From the NCBI GenBank assembly GCA_021298725.1, contig JAJTDU010000003.1, positions 1 to 55,662 of the forward strand: 55,662 nucleotides of DNA. Reading direction: 5' to 3'. The notes beneath the pieces were generated by a model. The model saw only the letters and a list, made by a program, of their open reading frames with translations, was not told where the DNA came from and did not search any database. This document shows positions 13,126 through 47,005 of the stretch, piece after piece. A program made the position numbers and the translations under genes. The stretch is from Verrucomicrobiaceae bacterium. GTDB lineage: Bacteria; Verrucomicrobiota; Verrucomicrobiia; Verrucomicrobiales; Verrucomicrobiaceae. The first letter of the stretch is position 1; each line of letters starts with the position of its first letter.

Positions 13126-13626
13126 TCAGGTGTATTTCGCCAACAGCTCGCCCGCCCTCTCCGGAGCGACCTTTTCGTAAAAGTCGTCCTCCACCATGCA
13201 GACAGGGCCGAACCCACAACTCGCCAAACACTCGGCAAACTCGATGCTGTATTTTCCATCCTGACTCACCGCGATGGGATGATGATGGTCCGTATGAGAG
13301 CGGTCTATACCGGCTTTTTGGCAAAGAGACTCCATCAACTCGTAGCTACCGGCCATGGCGCAGGAGAGTGTGCGGCAGACGCGGATGTGGAACTTGCCGG
13401 GAGCAGTCTGGCGGAAGCCAGGGTAAAAAGTCACTACCTCAAGCACTTGAATCGGCTCCAAACCAAGCTTGGCGGCCACCCAGGCCACGGCTTCGTCACT
13501 GATGAAGCGAAAATGATGCTGCAGGAGATGCAGCAGCGGCAGCACCGCGCTGCGCTTCGATACGGGATAGTGCGAGATCGCCTCATCCATGCGTTTTTCC
13601 AACTCGGCTGGAACTTCAAAGGCCAT
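13126..13626 (-). CDS. nuoE: NADH-quinone oxidoreductase subunit E
   Basis: VLEVVTFYPGFRQTAPGKFHIRVCRTLSCAMAGS; ECLASCGFGPVCMV 2Fe-2S thioredoxin-like motifs. Confidence 0.93.
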   Translation of the reverse strand: MAFEVPAELEKRMDEAISHYPVSKRSAVLPLLHLLQHHFRFISDEAVAWVAAKLGLEPIQVLEVVTFYPGFRQTAPGKFHIRVCRTLSCAMAGSYELMESLCQKAGIDRSHTDHHHPIAVSQDGKYSIEFAECLASCGFGPVCMVEDDFYEKVAPERAGELLAKYT

Positions 13627-13659: not shown

Positions 13660-14919
13660 TCAGCGGTCACACTCGCCCATCACGAAATCCAGGCTGCCGA
13701 GCACGGCAGGGATGTCGCTGAGCATGTGTCCAGGGATCAGTTTGGAAATGATGCTGAGATTCAGGAAGGAGGGGCTGCGAATTTTCAGACGATGGGGCAC
13801 ACCGCCGCCTGTGCTGTTGATGTAAAAGCCCAACTCACCCTTCGGATTCTCAGCAGAGAAATAAACCTCTCCCGCAGGCGCGTCGATGCCCTGGGTAGAA
13901 ATGATGAAATGGTGGATGAGTTCCTCCATCTTCATCATCACTTTTTCTTTTTTGGGCAGCAGGCCTTTGGCGTCTGCCACATTGATCGGCCCGCCGGGTA
14001 GGTTTGTTAACACCTGACGCAGGATGCGCACGCTTTGACGCATTTCCTCCAGGCGCACGAGGTAGCGGTCATAGCAGTCGCCCTTTGTGCCTACGGGCAC
14101 GTCGAACTCATACTTATCGTAGTCGAGATAAGGCCGGGCTTTGCGGATGTCATGCTCGACGCCTGATCCACGTAAATTGGGGCCCGTGATGCCATAGGCG
14201 ATGGCCTCTTCCTTGGAGATCACGCCGACGTCTTGGGTGCGCTCCATGAAAATGCGGTTTCGAGAGAGCAGCTTGTCAACCTCATCAATCACCGGCTCCA
14301 GCTCGCTGAGGAAACGCTGCACGGAATGCACGAAGCCATCTGGCAAATCGCGGATCTGTCCACCCACGCGGGTGTAGCTCGTAGTGAAGCGTGCTCCAGT
14401 GAGCTGCTCGCAGAGATTGTAGATTTTTTCGCGCTCTGTGAAGGTGTAGAGGAAGACCGTCATAGCCCCCACATCCATCGCAAACACCCCGACTCCCAGC
14501 ATGTGTGCGGAGATACGGGCCAGCTCGCAGCAAATCACACGGATCGCCCTGCCTCGCTCGGGAACTTCCCAGCCCATGAGTTTTTCCACGGCTAGGGCGT
14601 AGGCCACATTGTTCGCCAGCGGTGCCAAGTAATCGAGCCGGTCCGTGTAGGGCACGAACTGGTTGTAATGCATGTTCTCGGCGATTTTTTCGTCACCACG
14701 ATGCAGGAAACCGACATCAGGATCGGCTTTGGTAATGATCTCGCCGTCCAGTTCAAGCACCAAGCGAAGCACACCATGCGTGGCCGGATGGCTTGGCCCC
14801 ATGTTGAGCACCAATTTCTCGCCCACGATGTCCTGGGTCGTCTCTTCCACAGCTTCGAGATGCCGAGCCACCTTCGCGGCGGTATCCGGAGCTTCGTATT
14901 CTCGGGTGACGGTGGGCAT
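13660..14919 (-). CDS. nuoD: NADH-quinone oxidoreductase subunit D
   Basis: LNMGPSHPATHGVLRLVLELDGE; GFLHRGDEKIAE; C-terminal AVLGSLDFVMGECDR. Confidence 0.96.
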   Translation of the reverse strand: MPTVTREYEAPDTAAKVARHLEAVEETTQDIVGEKLVLNMGPSHPATHGVLRLVLELDGEIITKADPDVGFLHRGDEKIAENMHYNQFVPYTDRLDYLAPLANNVAYALAVEKLMGWEVPERGRAIRVICCELARISAHMLGVGVFAMDVGAMTVFLYTFTEREKIYNLCEQLTGARFTTSYTRVGGQIRDLPDGFVHSVQRFLSELEPVIDEVDKLLSRNRIFMERTQDVGVISKEEAIAYGITGPNLRGSGVEHDIRKARPYLDYDKYEFDVPVGTKGDCYDRYLVRLEEMRQSVRILRQVLTNLPGGPINVADAKGLLPKKEKVMMKMEELIHHFIISTQGIDAPAGEVYFSAENPKGELGFYINSTGGGVPHRLKIRSPSFLNLSIISKLIPGHMLSDIPAVLGSLDFVMGECDR

Positions 14920-14955: not shown

Positions 14956-15009
14956 CCTATCTATGCTGCCCAAACAGCGGCAAGGCGATTTTGTGAAAAA
15001 TTTCACAAG
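14956..15009 (-). promoter_or_regulatory. putative nuoD promoter with CRP/FNR-superfamily-like palindrome
   Basis: 18-bp palindrome TTGTGAAA-AA-TTTCACAA (14991-15008), TTGCCG at 14978-14983, 16-nt spacer, GATAGG at 14956-14961; same layout upstream of nuoI. Confidence 0.6.
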
Positions 15010-15070: not shown

Positions 15071-15949
15071 TCAGGTCCCCAGCGGCTCTACATCGACGCC
15101 CACACCCACCGTGTGATGCCCGCCGCCAGTGATGATGCCACGCACGGGGCTGACGTCGGAGAAATCACGACCGTAGGCCACGGTGATGTGGTCGAGCGAG
15201 GTGAAGCAGTCATTGGTGGGATCGAAGTCCACCCAGCCAAACCTGGGGACAAAGCAGGAAGCCCAGGCATGCGAGGCATCCACGCCGACGAGGCGTGGTT
15301 TCCCCACAGGCGGGTGGGTGCGCAGGTAGCCGCTGATGTAGCGGGCAGGCAGGCCCATGGCACGCATGCTGGCGATGGCGAGATGCGCGAAGTCCTGGCA
15401 GACGCCACGTTTTTTTTCCAACACCTCAGCCAGTGGCGTGCTGACCGTGGTGGCCTTCGGATCGAATACGAACTCACGATGAATGCGTGAGCAGAGATCT
15501 GCGGCGGCGGTGAGAATTGGCCGACCGGGTTTGAAACTGGGCAGGGCGAAGTCACGCAGCGGCATCTCATGCACCAACAGCGGACTGCGGAAGACGAATT
15601 GGCAGGGGTCGAGCAGGTCGATCGGCACCGGATCACGAAACAGCGCGGCCACATCCTCCCAGGGAGGCGTTTGCGCCGGATCAGGCTGCAACACGGGAGC
15701 TAGGGCCACGAGACTGCGCGAGGTGACCTCGAACCGCCCGTGCAGCTTTTGAATGGAGAAGCAGGAGACTTGGTTGCCGAAGGAGTCTTTGTGCTCGGTG
15801 AGCAGATCAGGCTCGGGATCGAAGCTGAGGGTAAACTCCTTACAGCGCTGCGTTTCCGTGTCGCGCGGACGCAGCCGGGCTGCGTGATGCGAGACCGCCA
15901 CCGGGGCGCTGTAGGAATAGGTGGTGCGATGAGTGATGCGGTAATTCAT
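15071..15949 (-). CDS. transglutaminase-like family protein (bacterial transglutaminase N-terminal + transglutaminase core)
   Basis: MNYRITHRTTYSYSAPVAVSHHAARLRPR; KKRGVCQDFAHLAIASMRAMGLPARYISGYL; DASHAWASCFVPRFGWVDFDPTN. Confidence 0.9.
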   Translation of the reverse strand: MNYRITHRTTYSYSAPVAVSHHAARLRPRDTETQRCKEFTLSFDPEPDLLTEHKDSFGNQVSCFSIQKLHGRFEVTSRSLVALAPVLQPDPAQTPPWEDVAALFRDPVPIDLLDPCQFVFRSPLLVHEMPLRDFALPSFKPGRPILTAAADLCSRIHREFVFDPKATTVSTPLAEVLEKKRGVCQDFAHLAIASMRAMGLPARYISGYLRTHPPVGKPRLVGVDASHAWASCFVPRFGWVDFDPTNDCFTSLDHITVAYGRDFSDVSPVRGIITGGGHHTVGVGVDVEPLGT

Positions 15950-28638: not shown

Positions 28639-30900
28639 TCACTCCGCGTAGCGCAGGAAAGCCTTCCTGCGCTGCGTGAACTGCGCCAGCTCTTCGCTCC
28701 AACCCTCGATCACCTTTTTCCAAGACTCGCCCGCGCGGATCGCTTTCACGCTCTTGTCGTGGTTGAGCAGCGTGTTGACCTTCTCCAGCGCGAAGGACTT
28801 TGGATAGAGCCGCTGCAGCACGGTCGCGATAGCGAGGCCCGTTTCCACGGGCTGCAAAACATCACGATTTGTCATGGCGATGCGTACTCCGCCGCAGGCC
28901 ACGCCTTGGAACACACTTGCCGTTGGTGTGAAGCGCACCGGTGTGAACCGTACACCGGGCAGACCAAGTTGGTTCAACTCATGCGCCAGCCGCAAATCGT
29001 TCACATAGGGCGCTCCCAGCACCTCAAAGGGCGAATCAGTGCCACGGCCAACACTGATGCTGAATTCGAGTAGTCCGATACCGGGATAAAGCTGCGCGGC
29101 ATTCAAGGTGCGCATGTTTGGTGACGGATGGATCCATGGCAGGCCGGTTTGATCGAACAACATGCCTCGCCGCCAGCCTTCGACGGAAATCACCTTCAAA
29201 TCGCAACCCTGGGCGCGTTCCGCGTTCATCATCGCCGCCAGTTCGCCCGCCGTCATGCCGTGGCGCAGCGGAATGGCATGCGTAGCCGTCTGCTTTTCCT
29301 CATCAAGCACCGCCGGACCTTCCACGGCGAGTCCGCCGATGGGATTCACACGGTCCAGGACATAAAACGCCTTCTTTGCCTTCGCCGCCGCCTCCATGCA
29401 CAGCCGCAGGGTGCCGATGTAGGTGTAAAAGCGGCAGCCAATGTCCTGAATGTCAAAAACGAGCGCGTCGAGATCCGCAAGCTGTTCCGCCGAAGGGGCG
29501 CGACGCTCACCGTAGAGGCTCAGCACTGGCAAGCCGGTCTTTTTGTCCTTGGTGTCGCCAATCTTCTCCTGATCCAGCTCCCCACGGATGCCGTGCTCTG
29601 GGCTGAAGAGTTTCTTGAGCTTCACCTCGGGCGCGGCGGCCAGCAGGTCAATCGTGCTGCGCCGCTGCGCGTCGATGCCGGTCTGGTTCGTGATCAAACC
29701 GATCCGCAAGCCCTTCAACTCGGCAAACTTGCGGCGCACGAGCACGTCGATGCCGTTCAGCACCGTCGGCACCTCTTTTTCATCACGCGGCCAGGGTGGG
29801 CCGCCTGCCGTGAATCGCATTCCTTGTGCCACCGTCGTGCCGATCTCCTCATACAAGTCGCGCACGCTGCCCTGGCCGTCGGGATGCAGCCGGGAGCTCA
29901 TGAAAATGACCAAGGTCTTGGTCTGCGGCTCGATCCACAGGCTCGTGCCGGTGAAACCTGTGTGACCGAACGATCCAAGCGGAAACCGCTTCCCACGCGG
30001 CCGGCTGAAGGCCGAATCGATGTCCCAGCCGAGTCCGCGCCGCTCAAACACCGTCGCGATGGTGTGCGGTGTTGTCATGAGCCTCACCGTTTCTGCTTTC
30101 AGCACGCCAGCGCCGTTGTTCAGGATCATCCGCGCATACTTCGCGAGATCGCCCGCCGTCGTGAACAAACCTGCGTGCCCCGTGACGCCGCCCATCTTGC
30201 GCGAGGTCGGATCATGCACCACGCCGCGCAGCATCACGCCGTCTTGATCCTTCTCCGTCGGCGCGATCCGCAGCTTCCAGTCTTCCGGCGGCAAAAAACG
30301 CGTGGAATCCATCTTCAGCGGCCCAAACACGTTCTTCGCCGCGAACTCGTTCAAAGCCGACCCACTCACGCGCCGCACGATTTCGCCGAGCAGAATGAAG
30401 TTGATGTCTGAGTAGCGGAAAAACCGGTCTGGCGGCCGTTCGGGCTCCAATTCGACCGCACATCGAATGCCCGTCTCATAGCCCGTCCACTCCGGCTCTT
30501 TCGGAATTCCCGACCTGAGGCCCGAAGTGTGTGTCAGCAGATGCCGCACCGTGATTCCTCCGCGAAATTCCGGAAGGTAGCGCCGCACCTCCGCCTCCAG
30601 CTCAATTTTGCCCTGCTCCATCAGGATCAAAACACTCGGCAACGTCGCCACCACCTTCGTCAGTGACGCCACGTCAAACACCGTATCCTCCGTCATCGCC
30701 TCCTTGGCTGGTGAAAGCGTTCTTTGGCCTTCCACGAGCGTCATCGTCTTCTCCCCGCTTTCCACATGCAGCACCGCCCCCGGCGGATTCCCCTTCGCCA
30801 CCGCTCTGCGCACGACTTCGCGCACAGGATCAAACTCGTCCGCTTGGACGAGAGAGCAAAAAAACAAGAGTGGGAGCAGGCAGCGCATGGTGAACTTCAT
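28639..30900 (-). CDS. fusion: beta-lactamase-family serine hydrolase + DUF1343/NamZ exo-beta-N-acetylmuramidase-like domain
   Basis: N-terminal FDVASLTKVVATLPSVL (SxxK) and signal peptide; C-terminal LRIGLITNQTGIDAQRRSTIDLL..LFSPEHGIRGELDQ..DIQDIGCRFYTYIGTL. Confidence 0.88.
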   Translation of the reverse strand: MKFTMRCLLPLLFFCSLVQADEFDPVREVVRRAVAKGNPPGAVLHVESGEKTMTLVEGQRTLSPAKEAMTEDTVFDVASLTKVVATLPSVLILMEQGKIELEAEVRRYLPEFRGGITVRHLLTHTSGLRSGIPKEPEWTGYETGIRCAVELEPERPPDRFFRYSDINFILLGEIVRRVSGSALNEFAAKNVFGPLKMDSTRFLPPEDWKLRIAPTEKDQDGVMLRGVVHDPTSRKMGGVTGHAGLFTTAGDLAKYARMILNNGAGVLKAETVRLMTTPHTIATVFERRGLGWDIDSAFSRPRGKRFPLGSFGHTGFTGTSLWIEPQTKTLVIFMSSRLHPDGQGSVRDLYEEIGTTVAQGMRFTAGGPPWPRDEKEVPTVLNGIDVLVRRKFAELKGLRIGLITNQTGIDAQRRSTIDLLAAAPEVKLKKLFSPEHGIRGELDQEKIGDTKDKKTGLPVLSLYGERRAPSAEQLADLDALVFDIQDIGCRFYTYIGTLRLCMEAAAKAKKAFYVLDRVNPIGGLAVEGPAVLDEEKQTATHAIPLRHGMTAGELAAMMNAERAQGCDLKVISVEGWRRGMLFDQTGLPWIHPSPNMRTLNAAQLYPGIGLLEFSISVGRGTDSPFEVLGAPYVNDLRLAHELNQLGLPGVRFTPVRFTPTASVFQGVACGGVRIAMTNRDVLQPVETGLAIATVLQRLYPKSFALEKVNTLLNHDKSVKAIRAGESWKKVIEGWSEELAQFTQRRKAFLRYAE

Positions 30901-33079: not shown

Positions 33080-36000
33080 TCATCCGAGCCGCTGATCCAG
33101 CGTGAAGGGAAACTCGGGATTGGGCACCGCCGGAGCGACTTTCATCTTCCCAGGCGTGTGCCCGTGGCGGAAGAAGCGGGCGAGGCGGCGGCTTTCGGCC
33201 TCGTAGGCGTTCACCGGGAAGGTTTCATAGCTGCGACCGCCAGGATGCGCGACGTGGTAGGTGCAGCCGCCGAGGGAGCGCTGGTTCCACAGATCAACGA
33301 GATCAATGGTGAGCGGCGAATGCACGCCGACGGTGGGCTGCAAGCAGCTCGCCGGCTGCCAAGCGCGGTAACGCACACCAGCCACGTGCTCACCGTTCGT
33401 GCCGGTGGGATGCAGCGGCACGGTTTTGCCGTTGCAGGTGATGGCGTAACGGCCTTCGACGAGGCCCTGGGCCTTGATTTGGATGCGTTCGAGCGAGGAA
33501 TCGACGAAGCGCACCGCACCACCGGCGCTGCCTTCTTCACCGAGCACATGCCAGGGCTCCAGCGCTTGGCGGATTTCGACGTGGACGTTGCGTGAGGACC
33601 AGTCGCCGCTAAGCGGGAAGCGGAACTCGTGATGCGGGGCGAACCACTCCGGCTTGAGCTCGTAACCGGCGCGGCGGGTTTCGTCGCACACGTCTTCAAA
33701 GTCGCTCCATGAGAAGTGCGGCAGCATCCAGCGGTCGTGGATGTCCGTTCCCCAGCGCACGAGCGGAGCTTCGTACGGCTCCTTCCAGAATCTTGCGATG
33801 AGCGTGCGCAGCATCAGCGCCTGCGCGAGGCTCATGCGCGCATGCGGCGGCATTTCAAAGGCGCGCATTTCCAGCAAGCCGAGACGGCCGGTGCTGCTGT
33901 CGGGCGAGTAGAGCTTGTCGATGCAGAATTCGGCGCGGTGCGTGTTGCCGGTCGAGTCGATGAGTAGGTTTCGATACAAGCGATCCACGAGCCATGGCGG
34001 CACATGGCCGGTTTGCTCGGCGGCTTTGAAGGCGACCTCCAGCTCGTAGAGCGAATCGTTGCGCGCTTCATCAATGCGCGGGCTCTGGCTCGTGGGGCCG
34101 ACAAACAGGCCGCTGAACATGTAGGAGAGCGAGGGGTGATTCTGCCAGTAGCTCACGAGGCTACGCAGCAAGTCCGGACGACGCAGGAACGGACTGTCTT
34201 TGGGCGATTCCGCGCCCATGACGATGTGATTGCCACCGCCGGTGCCGGTGTGGCGGCCATCGACCATGAACTTCTCCGTGCCGAGGCGTGTCTGCCGCGC
34301 TTCCTCGTAGAGCGTCTCGGTGATGTTCACCATCTCGTCCCAGCTCTTCGCAGGATGCACGTTCACCTCAATGACGCCGGGGTCGGGCGTGATTTTCAGG
34401 GCATGAACACGTGGATCAAAGGGCGGCGCGTAGCCTTCGATGACGATCGGCTGGTCCAGGGCGAGCGCGACATCCTCCACCGCGCCGAGGCAGCCCAAAT
34501 ACTCCTCCAAGCTCTTGGTCGGCGGCATGAAGATGAAGAGCTTGCCATCGCGCGGCTGCACGCAGAGTGCGGTGCGCACGATGGTGTCGGCAGACTGCCC
34601 CAGAGCAGGCGGCTGCGCGGCGGGATCAATGAGCTGGGCGCGTTCTTCCTCGCTCAATTCCTCCAGACCGAGCGGGCCGCGACGTTGCGCGAGTTTTTTC
34701 CAAAACGAAGGCGGCACTCCGGCGATGCCGCGAACAAATTGCTGACGCGATGGCAGGGGATCGCGATCCTCCAGCGGATCGAGTTCGTGATGATAGGGAT
34801 AGTCGGTGGATTTGACCCAGGGCTGTGAATCGAGCGGCAGCCGCAGGCCGATGGGTGAATCCCCCGGCACGAGGTAGCAGCGCTCGGCACGCAGGAACCA
34901 CGGACCAGTCCCCCAGCCATCTTCCACGGGTTGGAGCGGCAGCACATGGCCGATGATTTTGTCGAGGCCCTGCTCGAAAACTTTGGCCAGGCGCTCGCGC
35001 TCCTCCTTCTCCTTGAGGTTCGATTTATGGGGATCGACGTTCACCGGGAGCTTCCGCTCACGCCAGAGGTAGTAGAAGGCGTCTTCATACGTCGGCATGA
35101 TCCATTTCCCGCCGCAGCCGAGGCGCTCGGCCAGCGCGTGAATGAATCGCGCGGAGTGGGTTTCATTCACGCCGTAATCGGCCTGCATGTCGGCAAACAG
35201 ATGTGGATGCGCCCACACGGGCTGGCCGTCTTTGCGCCAGTAGCAGCCGTAGGACCAGCGCGGCAGCGACTCGCCGGGATACCATTTACCCTGTCCATAG
35301 TGAAGGAAGGCACCAGGGGCGAAGCGGTTCTTTAAACGCTTCATCAGTTCGTCAGAAAGACGGGCCTTCATCGGTCCTACCGCCGTTGTGTTCCACTCAG
35401 GGCCTTCCATGTCGTCGATGGAGACGAAGGTCGGTTCACCGCCCATGGTGAGGCGGATGTCGGCGGCCTTGATTTCCTTATCCAAAGCATGGCCGAGTGC
35501 GGCGATCTCTGCCCACTGCTCCTCGGTGTAAGGCTTGGTGACACGGGGCGACTCGAAGATGCGCTCCACCTTCATGTCGAACTCGAACTCTGTTTCGCAT
35601 GGCTCCACCAAGCCACTGATCGGTGCCGCACTGCCGGGGTCAGGTGTCGCCGCGAGCGGGATGTGGCCTTCACCGGCCAGCAGGCCAGAGGTCGGGTCAA
35701 ATCCGATCCAGCCGGCACCTGGCAGATACACCTCGCACCAAGCGTGCAGATCCGTGAAATCAACCTCCGTGCCGCTGGGGCCGTCCAGGGACTTCACGTC
35801 TGCTTTGAGCTGAATCAGGTAGCCGCTAACGAAACGGGACGCGATGCCGAGCCGACGCATGACCTGCACCATCAGCCACGCGGAGTCACGGCACGAGCCG
35901 CTGCCCTTCGTCAGAGACTCGTCAGGCGTCTGCACCCCCGGTTCCAGGCGAATGGTGTAGCTGATGTCTTGCCAGATGCGCTGATTGATCGCCACCAACA

Positions 36001-36451
36001 CATCGATCGTGCGCGGCGGCCACGGCTTCATCGCCAGCAGATCCTTTTCGATCGCGGAGTAGTATTCCGTGAATTTGGGCGTCAGATCGAGGCACTTCAA
36101 AAACGGGGCCAATTCGTGGTCCAGGGTAGCATCGTAGTCGAAAGGGAAATGCTCCGCGTCGGGCTCCAGGAAGAAGTCGAATGGATTGAGAACCGACATC
36201 TCGGCCACCACATCGACCTCGACGGTGAATTCCTTGGTTTTCTCCTCAAAGACGAGGCGGGCGAGGTAGTTTGACTGCGGGTCCTGCTGCCAATTGATGA
36301 AATGCTTCTCGGGCGTCACCTTCAGCGAGTAGCTCAGGATACGTGTGCGCGAATAAGGCGCGGGCCTCAGCCGGACCACCTGCGGACCCAGGGCGATGGG
36401 GCGTTCGTACCGGTAGCTGGTGCGGTGGTGAAGGGCGACGTGGATGGACAT
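33080..36451 (-). CDS. large transglutaminase-like + DUF2126 protein
   Basis: N-terminal bacterial transglutaminase (VALHHRTSYRYERPIALGPQVVRLRPAPY; GSCRDSAWLMVQVMRRLGIASRFVSGY) followed by DUF2126-type sequence (HTGTGGGNHIVMGAESPKDSPFLRRPDLLRSLVSYWQNHPSLSYMFSGLFVG). Confidence 0.92.
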   Translation of the reverse strand: MSIHVALHHRTSYRYERPIALGPQVVRLRPAPYSRTRILSYSLKVTPEKHFINWQQDPQSNYLARLVFEEKTKEFTVEVDVVAEMSVLNPFDFFLEPDAEHFPFDYDATLDHELAPFLKCLDLTPKFTEYYSAIEKDLLAMKPWPPRTIDVLVAINQRIWQDISYTIRLEPGVQTPDESLTKGSGSCRDSAWLMVQVMRRLGIASRFVSGYLIQLKADVKSLDGPSGTEVDFTDLHAWCEVYLPGAGWIGFDPTSGLLAGEGHIPLAATPDPGSAAPISGLVEPCETEFEFDMKVERIFESPRVTKPYTEEQWAEIAALGHALDKEIKAADIRLTMGGEPTFVSIDDMEGPEWNTTAVGPMKARLSDELMKRLKNRFAPGAFLHYGQGKWYPGESLPRWSYGCYWRKDGQPVWAHPHLFADMQADYGVNETHSARFIHALAERLGCGGKWIMPTYEDAFYYLWRERKLPVNVDPHKSNLKEKEERERLAKVFEQGLDKIIGHVLPLQPVEDGWGTGPWFLRAERCYLVPGDSPIGLRLPLDSQPWVKSTDYPYHHELDPLEDRDPLPSRQQFVRGIAGVPPSFWKKLAQRRGPLGLEELSEEERAQLIDPAAQPPALGQSADTIVRTALCVQPRDGKLFIFMPPTKSLEEYLGCLGAVEDVALALDQPIVIEGYAPPFDPRVHALKITPDPGVIEVNVHPAKSWDEMVNITETLYEEARQTRLGTEKFMVDGRHTGTGGGNHIVMGAESPKDSPFLRRPDLLRSLVSYWQNHPSLSYMFSGLFVGPTSQSPRIDEARNDSLYELEVAFKAAEQTGHVPPWLVDRLYRNLLIDSTGNTHRAEFCIDKLYSPDSSTGRLGLLEMRAFEMPPHARMSLAQALMLRTLIARFWKEPYEAPLVRWGTDIHDRWMLPHFSWSDFEDVCDETRRAGYELKPEWFAPHHEFRFPLSGDWSSRNVHVEIRQALEPWHVLGEEGSAGGAVRFVDSSLERIQIKAQGLVEGRYAITCNGKTVPLHPTGTNGEHVAGVRYRAWQPASCLQPTVGVHSPLTIDLVDLWNQRSLGGCTYHVAHPGGRSYETFPVNAYEAESRRLARFFRHGHTPGKMKVAPAVPNPEFPFTLDQRLG

Positions 36452-40638: not shown

Positions 40639-42102
40639 CTATTTTGCCGACACGACCGCAGGAGAGGCGGTCAGCACCTTTTGCAGGGGCTTGGGATAGA
40701 CGCCGAGGATGAGGATGATCAAGACGAGGACACCGGCGACGGCTTTGGAGGCGGTGCTGAGGGTCAGGGCGGTGGTTTCGACGCCTTCAGTGGTGTACAT
40801 CGCGAGGATGGTCTTGAAGTAGTAGTAGAAACCGGCGGCGGCGGCGATGACAGCGCAACTCAGAGCGCCCCAGTAGCCATGGTCGGCGAGGCCGAGGAAG
40901 ACGAACAGCTTACCGATGAACCCAGCGGTGAGCGGCAGTCCGGCAAGGGAGGCGAAGGAGATCGTCATGAACAAAGCCAGCGTCGGATTGCGCTTGGCGA
41001 GGCCGGTGAAGTCCTTGATGTCCTCGCCAAGGCCGTTGGCACGCATGAGACCAAGGCCGAGGAAGCCGAGGACAGTCATGGGCAGGTAGGTGGCAAGGTA
41101 GAAGGCGACGATGCCGCCAGAGGAGAGTTCAAAGCGGGCGGTTTCGCTGCAGGCGAGGGCGAGAAGCAAGTAGCCGGCATGCGAGATGCTGGAATAAGCC
41201 AGCAGGCGCTTCACGCTGGTCTGGAACATGGCGGGCAGACTGCCCAGCAGCACGGTGAGTGAGCCGATGACGAGCAGGAAGGCCTGAACCTCGGTGCTGA
41301 TGATCGAACCGGTGGCGAGGAAGGCCTCCAACGCGCGAGTGAGGACGACAAATCCGGCAGCTTTCGAACCAACAGAGAGGAAGGCGGTGACAGGAGTCGG
41401 AGCGCCTTGATACACATCCGGCACCCACATGTGGAAGGGCGCGGCGGCGACCTTGAAACCGAGGCCGCAGAGAATGAGCGCCGCACCAAAGAGCGCGGTG
41501 GATTTGCTGGTGGCCGGGTTGGCGAGCGCCTTACCAATGCCCTCAAAGCTCATCGTTCCGGTGGCTCCGTAGATCCAGGCGATGCCATAGACAAGGATGC
41601 CGGTCGAGAGTGCACCGAGAATGAGGTATTTGACGCCCGCTTCGAGACTGAAGGCGCTTTTGCGGGCGAAGGCGACAAGGACGTAGAAACTGACGGTGAC
41701 GAGTTCGAGCGCGACGAAGACGGTGACCAAATCACGCGCGGAGGCCATCCACATCATGCCGGAGCAGACGATGAGCGGCAGGCTGAACATCTCAGCCAGT
41801 TTGCCATCGACGGTAAAGCGCGTGAGGTAGGGCGCGCACTCAAGCGTGAGCCAGAGCACGAGCAGCGTGATGACGATGGCGAAGCCTTTGTAGAACAACG
41901 CGAGCGTATCGAGCTGATGCCAGGGCTGCATGAAGCTAGGCAGCGGGGCTCCGCAAAACGGCAGCAGCACGAGCGCGAACGCGGTGCCGGCAATGGCAGT
42001 AAGGCCGAGGGTGCGGCGGGAGATGTCTGGCTTGAAGGCCTCGACGAGCAAAAGAACAAGCCCGAGGAGGGCGAGACCGGCTTCGATGGTGAAAACGCTC
42101 AT
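40639..42102 (-). CDS. nuoN: NADH-quinone oxidoreductase subunit N
   Basis: Multi-TM antiporter-like subunit; AAPFHMWVPDVYQGAPTPVTAFLSVGSKAAGF. Confidence 0.94.
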   Translation of the reverse strand: MSVFTIEAGLALLGLVLLLVEAFKPDISRRTLGLTAIAGTAFALVLLPFCGAPLPSFMQPWHQLDTLALFYKGFAIVITLLVLWLTLECAPYLTRFTVDGKLAEMFSLPLIVCSGMMWMASARDLVTVFVALELVTVSFYVLVAFARKSAFSLEAGVKYLILGALSTGILVYGIAWIYGATGTMSFEGIGKALANPATSKSTALFGAALILCGLGFKVAAAPFHMWVPDVYQGAPTPVTAFLSVGSKAAGFVVLTRALEAFLATGSIISTEVQAFLLVIGSLTVLLGSLPAMFQTSVKRLLAYSSISHAGYLLLALACSETARFELSSGGIVAFYLATYLPMTVLGFLGLGLMRANGLGEDIKDFTGLAKRNPTLALFMTISFASLAGLPLTAGFIGKLFVFLGLADHGYWGALSCAVIAAAAGFYYYFKTILAMYTTEGVETTALTLSTASKAVAGVLVLIILILGVYPKPLQKVLTASPAVVSAK

Positions 42103-42111
42103 GGCAGGGGC

Positions 42112-43575
42112 TTACAGCGCGGATTTCATGAGGTTAAGCAGCAGCCAGGGGCAGCAGCCGGTGACGAGCAGGGTGGCGGCGAGCAGGATGAAGGGCAGAC
42201 GCTGCGAGAAAACGGGGTCGGTCATGAACAAGCCAGTGTTGGCGCTGCCATGGAAGATATTGCGGTAGGCGCGCAGCATGTAAACGGCGCTCATCACAAC
42301 GCCCCAGAGCGCGAGGATTACGGTCCAGTGCAGATTGGAAAGCTCTCCTGCCTTGAACTCAGTGAAACTGCCCGCAAAGACCATGACCTCTCCCGCGAAG
42401 TTGGCGAGACCCGGCAGACCGATGCTGGCGAAGGCTCCGAAGGCGAATAAAACGGTGAAAGCAGGCGCGTGGGTGGCAAGACCGCCGAGCTTATTGTATT
42501 CCAAGGTGCCAAGCTGGTTGCGCATCCGACCACAGAGGCCAAACAGCAGCGCGATGGACACACCATGCGCAAACATCAGCAGAACCGCGCCTTTGAGCGC
42601 GATCTCGGTGCCAGCGGCGAGGCCGAGGAAGATGTAGCCCATGTGCATCACACTGGAATTAGCAAGCGTGTCATCCAGGCGGTTCGCATGGATGGTGACG
42701 AGGCCCATGACGAGGATGTTGCCCAGCAGCATGAGCAGCAGCGCGTTTTGCACCCACTCGACCTGAGCTCCTTGAGGCAGCAGTGGCAAAGCGATGCGAA
42801 TGAGGCCGTAGAGGCCGAATTTCTTCAATACGCCGGAGTGCAGCATGGCAACCGGAGTCGGTGCGGTGGCATAGGCTGGGGCAGCCCAGCTATGGAAGGG
42901 GAAGAGGCTGACGAGCGTGCCAAAACCAAGCAGCAGCACGAAGAAAATCTGCGCCTGCTTGGCCACCGGTAGCGGCGTGAGCTGGGCTTGGTTGCGCAAC
43001 GCTTCGAGGTCAAAAGTGAGCTTGGAACCGCCGCTGAACTCCAACACGACCCAGGCGAGACCGGCGAGCAGCACCAAACTGCCCGCACCAAGGTAAATCG
43101 TGGCTTTCCAGGCGACGGCCTTGCGCTGCGCGGCATCCGCACGGCCGTGAAGCGCGATCATGAGGAAGGTCGGGATCAACGCCAGCTCATGGAAGGCGTA
43201 GATGAAGAAAACGTCCGTGGTGAGAAACGCGCCCATCGCACCGCCGCCGATCAGCAGCGAGGAGATGTAGAAAATATTGGGCCGGTCCTCGATCTGCCAC
43301 ACAGCGGCCAGCATCACCAGCGAGGTGAGTAGGGCGAGGGTGAGCGAGACACCATCCGCGCCGACGGCGAAGCTGATGGCCGGATTTTCGAGCACCACGC
43401 GGGCGTTGGTGAAGGCGAGTCCCGCAGGTTTGGCGGCATACTGCACGCTGGCGTAGAGCACGAGCGCTAGATTGACGAACGTGGCCCCGAGGGAGGCGGC
43501 ACGGGCGGGCGCACCGAGCCAGACCGCGAGGGCGGCCAGCAGCGGGAGTGCGATGATGATTTCAAGAACGCTCAT
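42112..43575 (-). CDS. nuoM: NADH-quinone oxidoreductase subunit M
   Basis: FYISSLLIGGGAMGAFLTTDVFFIYAFHELALIPTFLMI; LFPFHSWAAPAYATAPTPVAMLHSGVLKKFGLYGLIR. Confidence 0.95.
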   Translation of the reverse strand: MSVLEIIIALPLLAALAVWLGAPARAASLGATFVNLALVLYASVQYAAKPAGLAFTNARVVLENPAISFAVGADGVSLTLALLTSLVMLAAVWQIEDRPNIFYISSLLIGGGAMGAFLTTDVFFIYAFHELALIPTFLMIALHGRADAAQRKAVAWKATIYLGAGSLVLLAGLAWVVLEFSGGSKLTFDLEALRNQAQLTPLPVAKQAQIFFVLLLGFGTLVSLFPFHSWAAPAYATAPTPVAMLHSGVLKKFGLYGLIRIALPLLPQGAQVEWVQNALLLMLLGNILVMGLVTIHANRLDDTLANSSVMHMGYIFLGLAAGTEIALKGAVLLMFAHGVSIALLFGLCGRMRNQLGTLEYNKLGGLATHAPAFTVLFAFGAFASIGLPGLANFAGEVMVFAGSFTEFKAGELSNLHWTVILALWGVVMSAVYMLRAYRNIFHGSANTGLFMTDPVFSQRLPFILLAATLLVTGCCPWLLLNLMKSAL

Positions 43576-43587
43576 TCAATTTTTCCA

Positions 43588-45465
43588 TCAATGGCCAAGG
43601 CGGGGCAGCACAAATACGACAAGATAAACCACGGCGATGACGCCGCCGCCGAGCAGGAAGGTGTAGCCTTGCAGATGACCGCCTTGCAGCATGCGGGTGG
43701 CGGCTCCGAGACGGGCGATGATCGCCGCAGGCAGGCGGGCGACGATGCCATCGACAAACACACGCTCAAGCGCGGTGACGATCCACGCCAAGCCGTCCTG
43801 GCAGACGCGGACGATCACGGTGTAGATCTCGTCGAAATAGAACTTGTTAGCGAAGAGCTTGATGCTGATTGGGTCCTTATCCTTGCCGCGGTAGAGATAG
43901 ATGGCAGCGCCTGCTCCCAGGATGAGGGCGGCGAGCGAGGCGAACAGCACGGTCTGATGGCCTTCAACGTGCGGCGGTTTCATGGCTTGCAACGGCGCGG
44001 CGAGCACGTCGTAGCCGGAGAGCACGGAGAAGATCGACAAAATCGCCAGCGGCAGGATCATGACCATCGGGGCTTCAGTGGCGTGATGCGCGGAATCGGT
44101 GCGGGGTTTGCCAAAGAAGGCCACAATGAGCAGTCGCGTCATGTAAAACGCCGTCAGTGCTGCCGTGGCCGCTCCAGCGAGGAACAATACTTTGCAACCA
44201 CTGTCATAAGCGGCTCCGAGAACGGCTTCCTTGCTCCAGAAACCGCTCAGGAACGGCACACCCATGAGAGCGGCGGTGCCAATGGCGAAGGTCCAGAAGG
44301 TGACTGGCATGTGCTTGCGCAGGCCTCCCATTTTCCAGATGTCCTGCTCGTGGTGGCAGGCATAAATCACCGCGCCAGAGCCAAGGAAGAGCATCGCCTT
44401 GAAGAAAGCGTGCGTGTAGAGGTGGAACATCGCGGGATGTCCCGGATCGGCCGCGTGCGCTCCCTGGTGCCCGTGCTGCGCGGCCATCGCCACTGCACCG
44501 ACGGCCATGACCATGTAACCGAGCTGAGAGAGTGTGGAGTAAGCGAGCACTCGCTTGATGTCGTTCTGCTGCGTGGCCATCAGCGCGGCGAGCAGCGCGG
44601 TGCCACAGCCGATGCCGGCGATGATTTCTGCCGCAAGAGGCGAGGCGGTGACGAGGAAACTGACCCGCACGAGCATGTAAACACCCGCCGCGACCATGGT
44701 GGCGGCGTGGATAAGCGCGGAAACCGGCGTGGGGCCTTCCATCGCGTCCGGAAGCCACACATGCAGCGGGAACTGGGCGGATTTGCCAACTGCGCCAAGG
44801 AAGATGCACAAAGCGGCAGCGGTGGTGAATCCGGCACTGTAACCCGGCGCATCCGGACGCAGCGGGCCGGAGGTGAAGGCCGTTTCGAGGTCGATCAGAT
44901 TCACATTGCCGCCGTTCGCGCCAAACAGCAGCAAGATGCCGATCATGAAGCCAAAATCGCCGATGCGGTTGGTGAGGAAGGCTTTTTTGCAGGCCTCGGC
45001 AGCGCTGGCCTTCTGATACCAGTGGCCGATGAGCAGGTAGGAACTCAAGCCGACCAGCTCCCAGAAGATGAACATCATGAACAGGTTTCCGGCCAGCACG
45101 ATGCCGGTCATGGAGAACATGAAGAGCGACAGCGAACCGAAGAAGCGTGGTTTCGCCTCGTCATCCTTCATGTAGCCGAGGGAGAAGATGTGAACCAGCA
45201 TGCCGACGAAGCTGACGATGAACATCATGCCGCGGCTTTGCTTGTCGATCAGCGCGTCGATGCCCGCGTTGAAGGTTCCGACTTCGATGAAGGGCAGCAG
45301 CAGGCGGTTATCGTCGTCCGCCGCCAAGAAGAACAAGCAGGCGATGAAGGAGATGATCGAAGAACCGAGGGAGATGAGGACGGAGGCCCCTTTGAGCTGA
45401 CGATGCCCCAGGAGGATGAGGAGCGCCGAGAAGAAAGGCAGCAGAAGGATGATGCTGGCGTGCAT
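43588..45465 (-). CDS. nuoL: NADH-quinone oxidoreductase subunit L
   Basis: FWELVGLSSYLLIGHWYQKASAAEACKKAFLTNRIGDFGFMIG; VGKSAQFPLHVWLPDAMEGPTPVSALIHAATMVAAGVYM. Confidence 0.96.
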   Translation of the reverse strand: MHASIILLLPFFSALLILLGHRQLKGASVLISLGSSIISFIACLFFLAADDDNRLLLPFIEVGTFNAGIDALIDKQSRGMMFIVSFVGMLVHIFSLGYMKDDEAKPRFFGSLSLFMFSMTGIVLAGNLFMMFIFWELVGLSSYLLIGHWYQKASAAEACKKAFLTNRIGDFGFMIGILLLFGANGGNVNLIDLETAFTSGPLRPDAPGYSAGFTTAAALCIFLGAVGKSAQFPLHVWLPDAMEGPTPVSALIHAATMVAAGVYMLVRVSFLVTASPLAAEIIAGIGCGTALLAALMATQQNDIKRVLAYSTLSQLGYMVMAVGAVAMAAQHGHQGAHAADPGHPAMFHLYTHAFFKAMLFLGSGAVIYACHHEQDIWKMGGLRKHMPVTFWTFAIGTAALMGVPFLSGFWSKEAVLGAAYDSGCKVLFLAGAATAALTAFYMTRLLIVAFFGKPRTDSAHHATEAPMVMILPLAILSIFSVLSGYDVLAAPLQAMKPPHVEGHQTVLFASLAALILGAGAAIYLYRGKDKDPISIKLFANKFYFDEIYTVIVRVCQDGLAWIVTALERVFVDGIVARLPAAIIARLGAATRMLQGGHLQGYTFLLGGGVIAVVYLVVFVLPRLGH

Positions 45466-45474
45466 GGCGTCTCG

Positions 45475-45792
45475 TTATCCCTGAAGTTTGGTGACGGACT
45501 CGACATCGACACTCTGCTTGGTGCGGAAGAGAGCCACGATGATGGCAAGACCCACAGCCACCTCAGCGGCGGCCACGGTGATGGTGAAGAACACGAGCGA
45601 CTGCGCAGTGTAGTCTGGCAGGCTGTTCACGAGATGGAAGCGGGAAAAGCCGACCAGCGCGAGGTTCGCGGCGCTGAGCATCATCTCCAAGCACATATAA
45701 ACGATGATGATGTTCCGGCGGGCGATGACGCCTGCCAGCCCGAGAGCAAACAGCATGCCGCTGACGACGAGGTAATGACCGAGCGTGATCAT
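45475..45792 (-). CDS. nuoK: NADH-quinone oxidoreductase subunit K
   Basis: ITLGHYLVVSGMLFALGLAGVIARRNIIIVYMCLEMMLSAANLALVGFSR. Confidence 0.95.
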   Translation of the reverse strand: MITLGHYLVVSGMLFALGLAGVIARRNIIIVYMCLEMMLSAANLALVGFSRFHLVNSLPDYTAQSLVFFTITVAAAEVAVGLAIIVALFRTKQSVDVESVTKLQG

Positions 45793-46373
45793 GGCGCGCT
45801 GCTCCTTTCGCGTTTGCTGAGCACCACGACGCCGATGGTGCCAACGAGCAGCAACAGGCCGACGACTTGGAGGTGGAAGCCGTATTGGTCAAACAACGTG
45901 AAGCCGATGAGTTTGGCGTCTGGCAGCGTGCCTTCCTTGAGGTCGTTCGTGATGGTGGGCAGCGCGGCAGCACGGCCGATCTTGCCTGCGGCCTCGGTGA
46001 GGGCCAGCGGGGTGTCAGTGGAGCTTTTCTTGGCGATGGCCGAGCTGCTGACAACCGTGATGATTTGCAAGACGAGCAGCACGGCGATGAGCACGCCGGA
46101 GATGATCGGGGCGAAGCTCAGCTTTTTGCCTTCCTCCGCTTTGATGTCCAGCAGCATGATGATGAAGAGGAACAGCACCATCACAGCGCCTGCATAAACG
46201 AGGATTTGGATCACGCCGATGAAGTAAGCGTCGAGGCTCAAAAATAAGGCCGCGAGTCCTACAAAGCAGGCGGCGAGTGACAAAGCGCAGGAAACCGGGT
46301 TGCGTCCCGTGACGACCATGAAGCCGAAGCCCAGGGTGATCAATGCCAGCAAATAGAAGAGCAGCGGAGGCAT
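45789..46373 (-). CDS. nuoJ: NADH-quinone oxidoreductase subunit J
   Basis: NPVSCALSLAACFVGLAALFLSLDAYFIGVIQILVYAGAVMVLFLFIIMLL. Confidence 0.94.
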   Translation of the reverse strand: MPPLLFYLLALITLGFGFMVVTGRNPVSCALSLAACFVGLAALFLSLDAYFIGVIQILVYAGAVMVLFLFIIMLLDIKAEEGKKLSFAPIISGVLIAVLLVLQIITVVSSSAIAKKSSTDTPLALTEAAGKIGRAAALPTITNDLKEGTLPDAKLIGFTLFDQYGFHLQVVGLLLLVGTIGVVVLSKRERSSAP

Positions 46374-46918
46374 CACTTCAATTCGTTCCACTTGTTCACC
46401 AGCCCCACGCGCTGGCCGCCGATTTCATAGAGGCGTTTTTTGTCGTGGACCATCTCCTGGCGTGAGAGACCGGTGATGGCGTAGTCTTTGCGCAGGTAGA
46501 TGGCCTGCTCCGGGCAAACCTCCTCGCACATGCCGCAGTAAATACAGCGGATCATGTCGATTTCGAACTCCTTGGGCCGCTTTTCGACCTTAGCCCACGG
46601 ATCGTCGCTCGGGATCTCTCCAGGGGTGATTTTGATGGCCTTCGGCGGGCAGATGAACTCGCAGAGTTGGCAGCTCACACAGCGCTCGCGGTCATGCTCG
46701 TCGGTCACGAGGGCCGGGGCACCGCGGTAGTGCTCAGGAAGCTGGTCGTCCCACTTCTGCTCCGGATATTCCATCGTCATCTTCGGCTTCTTACCGGCGA
46801 TTTGCAGGAAAGTCTTGATGCCATGGCCGACGGTGATTTTCAGGCCCTTGAGGAGCGTGGAAATGAACCAGCGTTCATGCCAGGCGAGCTTGGGGCGTTG
46901 TACGGTGATGGTGGCCAT
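46373..46918 (-). CDS. nuoI: NADH-quinone oxidoreductase subunit I
   Basis: Two 4Fe-4S motifs: CVSCQLCEFICPPKAI and CIYCGMCEEVCPEQAI. Confidence 0.95.
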   Translation of the reverse strand: MATITVQRPKLAWHERWFISTLLKGLKITVGHGIKTFLQIAGKKPKMTMEYPEQKWDDQLPEHYRGAPALVTDEHDRERCVSCQLCEFICPPKAIKITPGEIPSDDPWAKVEKRPKEFEIDMIRCIYCGMCEEVCPEQAIYLRKDYAITGLSRQEMVHDKKRLYEIGGQRVGLVNKWNELK

Positions 46919-46951: not shown

Positions 46952-47005
46952 ATTATCCAAGTCTCCCGCAGAGCGGCAACCGCTATTTGTGAAAAATTTC
47001 ACAAG
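46952..47005 (-). promoter_or_regulatory. putative nuoI promoter with CRP/FNR-superfamily-like palindrome
   Basis: 18-bp palindrome identical to the nuoD one (46987-47004), TTGCCG at 46974-46979, 16-nt spacer, GATAAT at 46952-46957. Confidence 0.65.

Follow-up and report, generated by a model that had tools for sequence, protein, structure and literature searches.

Nuo operons of the window and their upstream palindromes

The window, that is the whole stretch of 55,662 nucleotides analysed here, carries two separate groups of genes for respiratory complex I (nuo), both on the reverse strand. The first group consists of nuoD, encoding the 49-kDa subunit (13660..14919; Pfam PF00346 and NCBIfam NuoD TIGR01962), and nuoE, encoding the 24-kDa subunit (13126..13626; Pfam PF01257). 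The second group begins with nuoI (46373..46918), whose product has 4Fe-4S domains and matched the NCBIfam NuoI model TIGR01971 slightly below cut-off (E 1e-31). It continues with nuoJ (45789..46391; Pfam PF00499), nuoK (45475..45792; Pfam PF00420), nuoL (43588..45465; Pfam PF00361 and PF00662), nuoM (42112..43575) and nuoN (40639..42102). The last two encode antiporter-like subunits with the PF00361 domain and were named from gene order. The NuoD protein of the window was 92-95% identical to NuoD of Prosthecobacter-type Verrucomicrobiaceae, and by this sequence the source bacterium is a Prosthecobacter-like Verrucomicrobium. NuoD proteins 75-94% identical to that of the window were also found in metagenome assemblies labelled Akkermansia muciniphila (L159, L161, L207 and L234). 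These labels look wrong.

As the sequence-only reading had noticed, each of the two operons is preceded by a copy of the same 18-mer, TTGTGAAAAATTTCACAA. The copies are located at 14991..15008 upstream of nuoD and at 46987..47004 upstream of nuoI, and their identity extends to 20 nt, with one extra base on each side of the 18-mer. On the reverse strand, towards the gene, both read TTGTGAAATTTTTCACAA; we regard them as predicted Rex operators of the nuoDE and nuoIJKLMN operons, respectively. The distance from operator to start codon is 72 bp for nuoD (ATG at 14919) and 69 bp for nuoI (ATG at 46918). The sequence TTGCCGCT lies exactly 7 nt from the palindrome on the gene side at both nuoD and nuoI. 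At the same distance, a -35-like element, TTGCCG, was recognized by sequence on the reverse strand of each promoter (14978..14983 for nuoD and 46974..46979 for nuoI). Positions, extent and distances of the two copies were thus as previously described. With up to 3 mismatches allowed, dinucleotide shuffles of the window gave 0.20 matches, and both of the actual copies are perfect.

Distribution of the palindrome in this genome and in relatives

The assembly searched was 3.49 Mb in size and 81.7% complete. The pattern TTGTGAANNNNTTCACAA occurred six times genome-wide, compared with 0.003 expected from base composition and none for the reversed control pattern. Five of the sites were the identical 18-mer and one had a variant centre. 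Profile searches of the downstream genes placed all six directly upstream of respiratory operons. Besides nuoDE and nuoIJKLMN in the window, they precede nuoH on contig C99, atpB (the gene of the F0 a subunit) on C1 and two gene runs on C116, namely nuoBC, whose site has the variant centre, and a second run. The second run encodes a multihaem cytochrome c, an Fe-S/molybdopterin-like protein and an NrfD-like protein; it had no match to a dedicated model, and from its domain order we read it as a putative alternative complex III (ACIII, ActABC). Sites at nuoG, nuoF and the cytochrome c gene were not seen in this genome because nuoG begins at the edge of contig C27, nuoF proper is missing from the assembly, and the cytochrome c gene is located downstream within the ACIII gene run.

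It had been proposed from the window that a shared element coordinates the separated nuo operons and is dedicated to complex I. The first part is strongly supported. The second part did not hold, because sites are also found at the ATP synthase and ACIII genes. A genome-wide search for the palindrome, suggested at the same time as a way to further nuo and respiratory genes, led to nuoBC, nuoH, atpB and ACIII here and to nuoF and nuoG in relatives, and the random scatter over the genome that would have spoken against a regulatory role was not seen.

Genomes of the same genus had 4-9 sites each, typically 8, and no control match. Sites were classified by tblastn and Pfam: every one in G018 and G010, the majority in G003, a part in G019 and a single site in each other genome. 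The classified sites of the genus were located at nuoB, nuoD, nuoF, nuoG, nuoH (heading nuoHIJK) or nuoI, atpB, actA and a gene for a mono-haem cytochrome c; one site of the genus set (L027) was left without a class. A single site precedes nuoH-I-J-K in G018, whereas nuoH and nuoI, which are apart in the genome of the window, have a site each. Other families added nuoE, nuoM, a polyprenyl synthetase gene and a gene for an NADH-dehydrogenase-like flavoprotein. At four loci from other families of the order (L261, L263, L103 and L114) the palindrome was found at the start of the polyprenyl synthetase gene, perhaps that of a quinone side-chain enzyme, which suggests that quinone supply may be part of the regulon. 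One site in G034 was near the gene for phosphoglycerate kinase, a possible extra target. Overall, almost all operons of the respiratory chain and of ATP synthase in this bacterium and its relatives are preceded by the site.

Conservation in close relatives, the other point raised from the window, was evident: a perfect palindrome was located within 250 bases upstream of nuoD at 70 of the 80 related loci, and it was also found upstream of nuoI in two relatives (L031 and L033). Mobile elements can yield identical 18-mers, and repeats arising in this way or by chance would have no regulatory meaning. The flanks of the sites differ, however, the site is kept before orthologous genes in many genomes, and both the excess over expectation and the restriction to respiratory operons argue against such an origin. 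Conservation together with the coherent targets refutes this explanation, to which we assign a negligible probability.

Identity of the regulator

Both sites of the window contain the core TGTGA-N6-TCACA, an arrangement of CRP type, and had been taken for CRP-type sites. The published Rex operator, TTGTGAAN4TTCACAA (PMC5355995, PMC8376106), contains the same core, and the 18-bp palindromes found here match it. The inner half-sites are common to both kinds of operator. In contrast to CRP-type sites, the palindromes here keep the outer TT/AA and the A/T positions adjoining the centre, as Rex sites do. A profile search for the Crp-type DNA-binding domain HTH_Crp_2 (PF13545) gave no match in the genome itself; in the relatives there were three clear matches only, and the remainder were near or below cut-off. 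The palindromes therefore occur without a consistently accompanying Crp-type protein, and it is the presence and location of rex that tracks them. The Rex operator fits better, and the regulator of these sites is most likely Rex, a sensor of NADH/NAD+, not CRP.

A protein of the Crp/Fnr family that binds TGTGA-N6-TCACA and activates respiratory operons would be compatible with the half-sites, and the upstream position of the operator would suit an activator. Against it stand the missing HTH_Crp_2 domain, the Rex-like flanks of the half-sites and the palindromes adjoining rex itself in two distant genomes (see below), so we consider such a binder highly improbable; the test of PF13545 in the genome and its relatives lent it no support. 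Rex and another regulator might also use the same sites, given the sequence overlap between the half-sites of Rex and those of CRP, and given that rex occurs together with a clear Crp-type gene in G026, G034 and G036. Most site-bearing genomes are without a clear Crp-type gene, however, and shared use of this kind is very unlikely.

Within the order, 38 of the 41 genomes with sites also had rex, whereas none of the 21 genomes without sites did (Fisher 1e-13). The site-bearing genomes in which it was not found are the window's assembly (82% complete), G009 (90%) and G027 (83%), and the rex gene of the window's genome presumably lies in the unassembled part. The correlation represents few independent losses, because the site-less genomes mostly belong to one genus with small genomes, g2, which we take to be Akkermansia. 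In its family, f2, the 20 genomes of g2 (e.g. G031 and G035) had neither rex nor any perfect palindrome, genera g15 and g17 had both, and g16 (G248) had neither. The Rex proteins of the genus and of relatives in the order matched nine NCBIfam Rex models above cut-off as well as solved Rex structures, with both the DNA-binding and the NAD(H)-binding domain of the family. Nine aligned Rex proteins had in common a TQLRKDL...GxFGxRGxGY region and a GxGNLG nucleotide-binding loop.

Two distant members of the phylum carry the palindrome 31 nt upstream of rex, at 308351-308368 of contig C11 in G089 (L246) and at 135142-135159 of contig C22 in G196 (L247). This location would fit autoregulation. Among the rex loci of the genus, most had no site at up to 3 mismatches and none had a perfect one, and it seems that autoregulation was gained or lost between the genus and the distant members of the phylum. 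Apart from G089 and G196, distant genomes of the phylum had perfect palindromes with no clear target, some of them inside ORFs. Many genomes outside the order had rex and zero or one perfect palindrome, and the large regulon of near-perfect sites therefore looks like a feature of Verrucomicrobiales.

Promoter layouts and proposed regulation

The operators were found in two promoter layouts. In class A (nuo and atpB), all 64 sites have a TTG starting 5-7 nt past the operator, and in 94% it is TTGC; in the shuffle control this spacing turned up in 5 sites on average and in 12 at most. A -10-like block rich in A and T is located at offsets 23-27 from the TTG, which corresponds to a spacer of about 16-17 nt, and we infer that the centre of the operator lies near -50. 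In class B, seen at actA and cytochrome c of the genus, the operator comes after a -35 element, TTGCAA, and a -10 element, TATTCT or TAATCT-like; it starts about 9 nt past the -10 element and ends 18-33 nt ahead of the ATG. This position, over the predicted start, is the layout of a repressor.

At Luteolibacter-like nuoD promoters, CCTTGCGA...TTATTC is retained even though the palindrome is degraded. The core promoter therefore seems to be independent of the operator, and since nuoD apparently does not need the operator for its core promoter, repression is favoured over activation. For TTGCCGCT, the best reading is the -35 end of a putative core promoter. Its reading as the site of a second regulator was rejected because TTGC and the -10-like block outlast the palindrome at Luteolibacter-like nuoD. 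Six loci with a nuoD of Luteolibacter/Akkermansiaceae type (L212, L218, L222, L223, L225 and L231), in which the palindrome is decaying and the -35/-10 core is intact, make up a natural operator-loss series.

We propose that the palindromes are operators for Rex and that NADH-relieved repression tunes the whole respiratory chain, a reading to which we give a probability of about 85%. At a low ratio of NADH to NAD+, the Rex dimer would bind the operators and hold down the promoters of the main operons for oxidative phosphorylation, that is those of the complex I loci, of ACIII and cytochrome c and of ATP synthase. A rise in NADH would release Rex, and the entire chain would be expressed together. 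At the nuo and atp promoters Rex would be bound directly upstream of the -35 element, abutting the contacts of sigma and of the alpha subunit; at the ACIII and cytochrome c promoters an operator over the transcription start would act as a classical roadblock. Both Rex binding and the direction of its effect are inferred. The weakest step of the model is the direction in class A, as an operator that precedes the -35 element by an almost constant distance would suit an activator as well.

It is possible that Rex acts by position, activating nuo and atp or recruiting polymerase to them, and repressing ACIII and cytochrome c where the operator covers the start. The near-constant 5-7 nt between operator and -35 element in class A, as against the downstream location at actA and cytochrome c, would agree with this. 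We consider it unlikely, however: Rex is a repressor in the papers found (PMC5355995, PMC8376106), the nuoD core promoters of relatives with an eroded palindrome are nearly unchanged and show no sign of compensation, and the spacing differs among orthologous groups within its range of 5 to 7 nt. It is likewise doubtful that Rex of Verrucomicrobiales is a dual-mode master switch that supports complex I and ATP synthase and blocks ACIII and cytochrome c. If it were, one redox sensor would set the ratio of the complexes, beyond their level alone.

Repression by Rex has a precedent in Streptomyces avermitilis, where Rex governs nuo and atp in this way and the operators of both overlap the -35 region (PMC5355995). 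The two regulons share the operator consensus, the nuo and atp operons and respiratory targets in general. They differ in that S. avermitilis has a single nuo operon and mismatched sites overlapping -35, whereas the nuo genes here are dispersed and have near-perfect operators upstream of -35. In addition, ACIII is a target here, sites at cydABCD or hem were not seen, and rex of the genus is without an autoregulatory site. The Rex regulons of Firmicutes (S. aureus, B. subtilis and streptococci; PMC8376106, PMC6018154) share the 18-bp palindrome and the protein family with the system described here. The targets named there are mainly genes for fermentation and NAD regeneration, in contrast to aerobic respiration and ATP synthase here. 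The open-access literature searched yielded nothing usable on a Rex regulon in Verrucomicrobia. Within that literature, the verrucomicrobial Rex regulon, its dispersed nuo operons each with a near-perfect operator, the ACIII target and the two promoter layouts appear to be new.

From sequence alone, complex I, ACIII and ATP synthase are predicted to be under one common switch that senses NADH, across the widespread Verrucomicrobiales. Complex I, encoded at separate loci, would be kept in step by a copy of the operator at every operon start, and the split nuoH and nuoI pieces each bear one. The promoter layout is evolutionarily replicated and can readily be tested.

Other genes of the window were noted in passing. 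A 753-aa ORF (28639-30900) combines a beta-lactamase-like domain with domains of the exo-beta-N-acetylmuramidase NamZ, which suggests a role in peptidoglycan recycling. A 1123-aa transglutaminase/DUF2126 protein, a putative amidoligase, is encoded at 33080-36451, and a separate small transglutaminase-like protein is encoded at 15071-15949.
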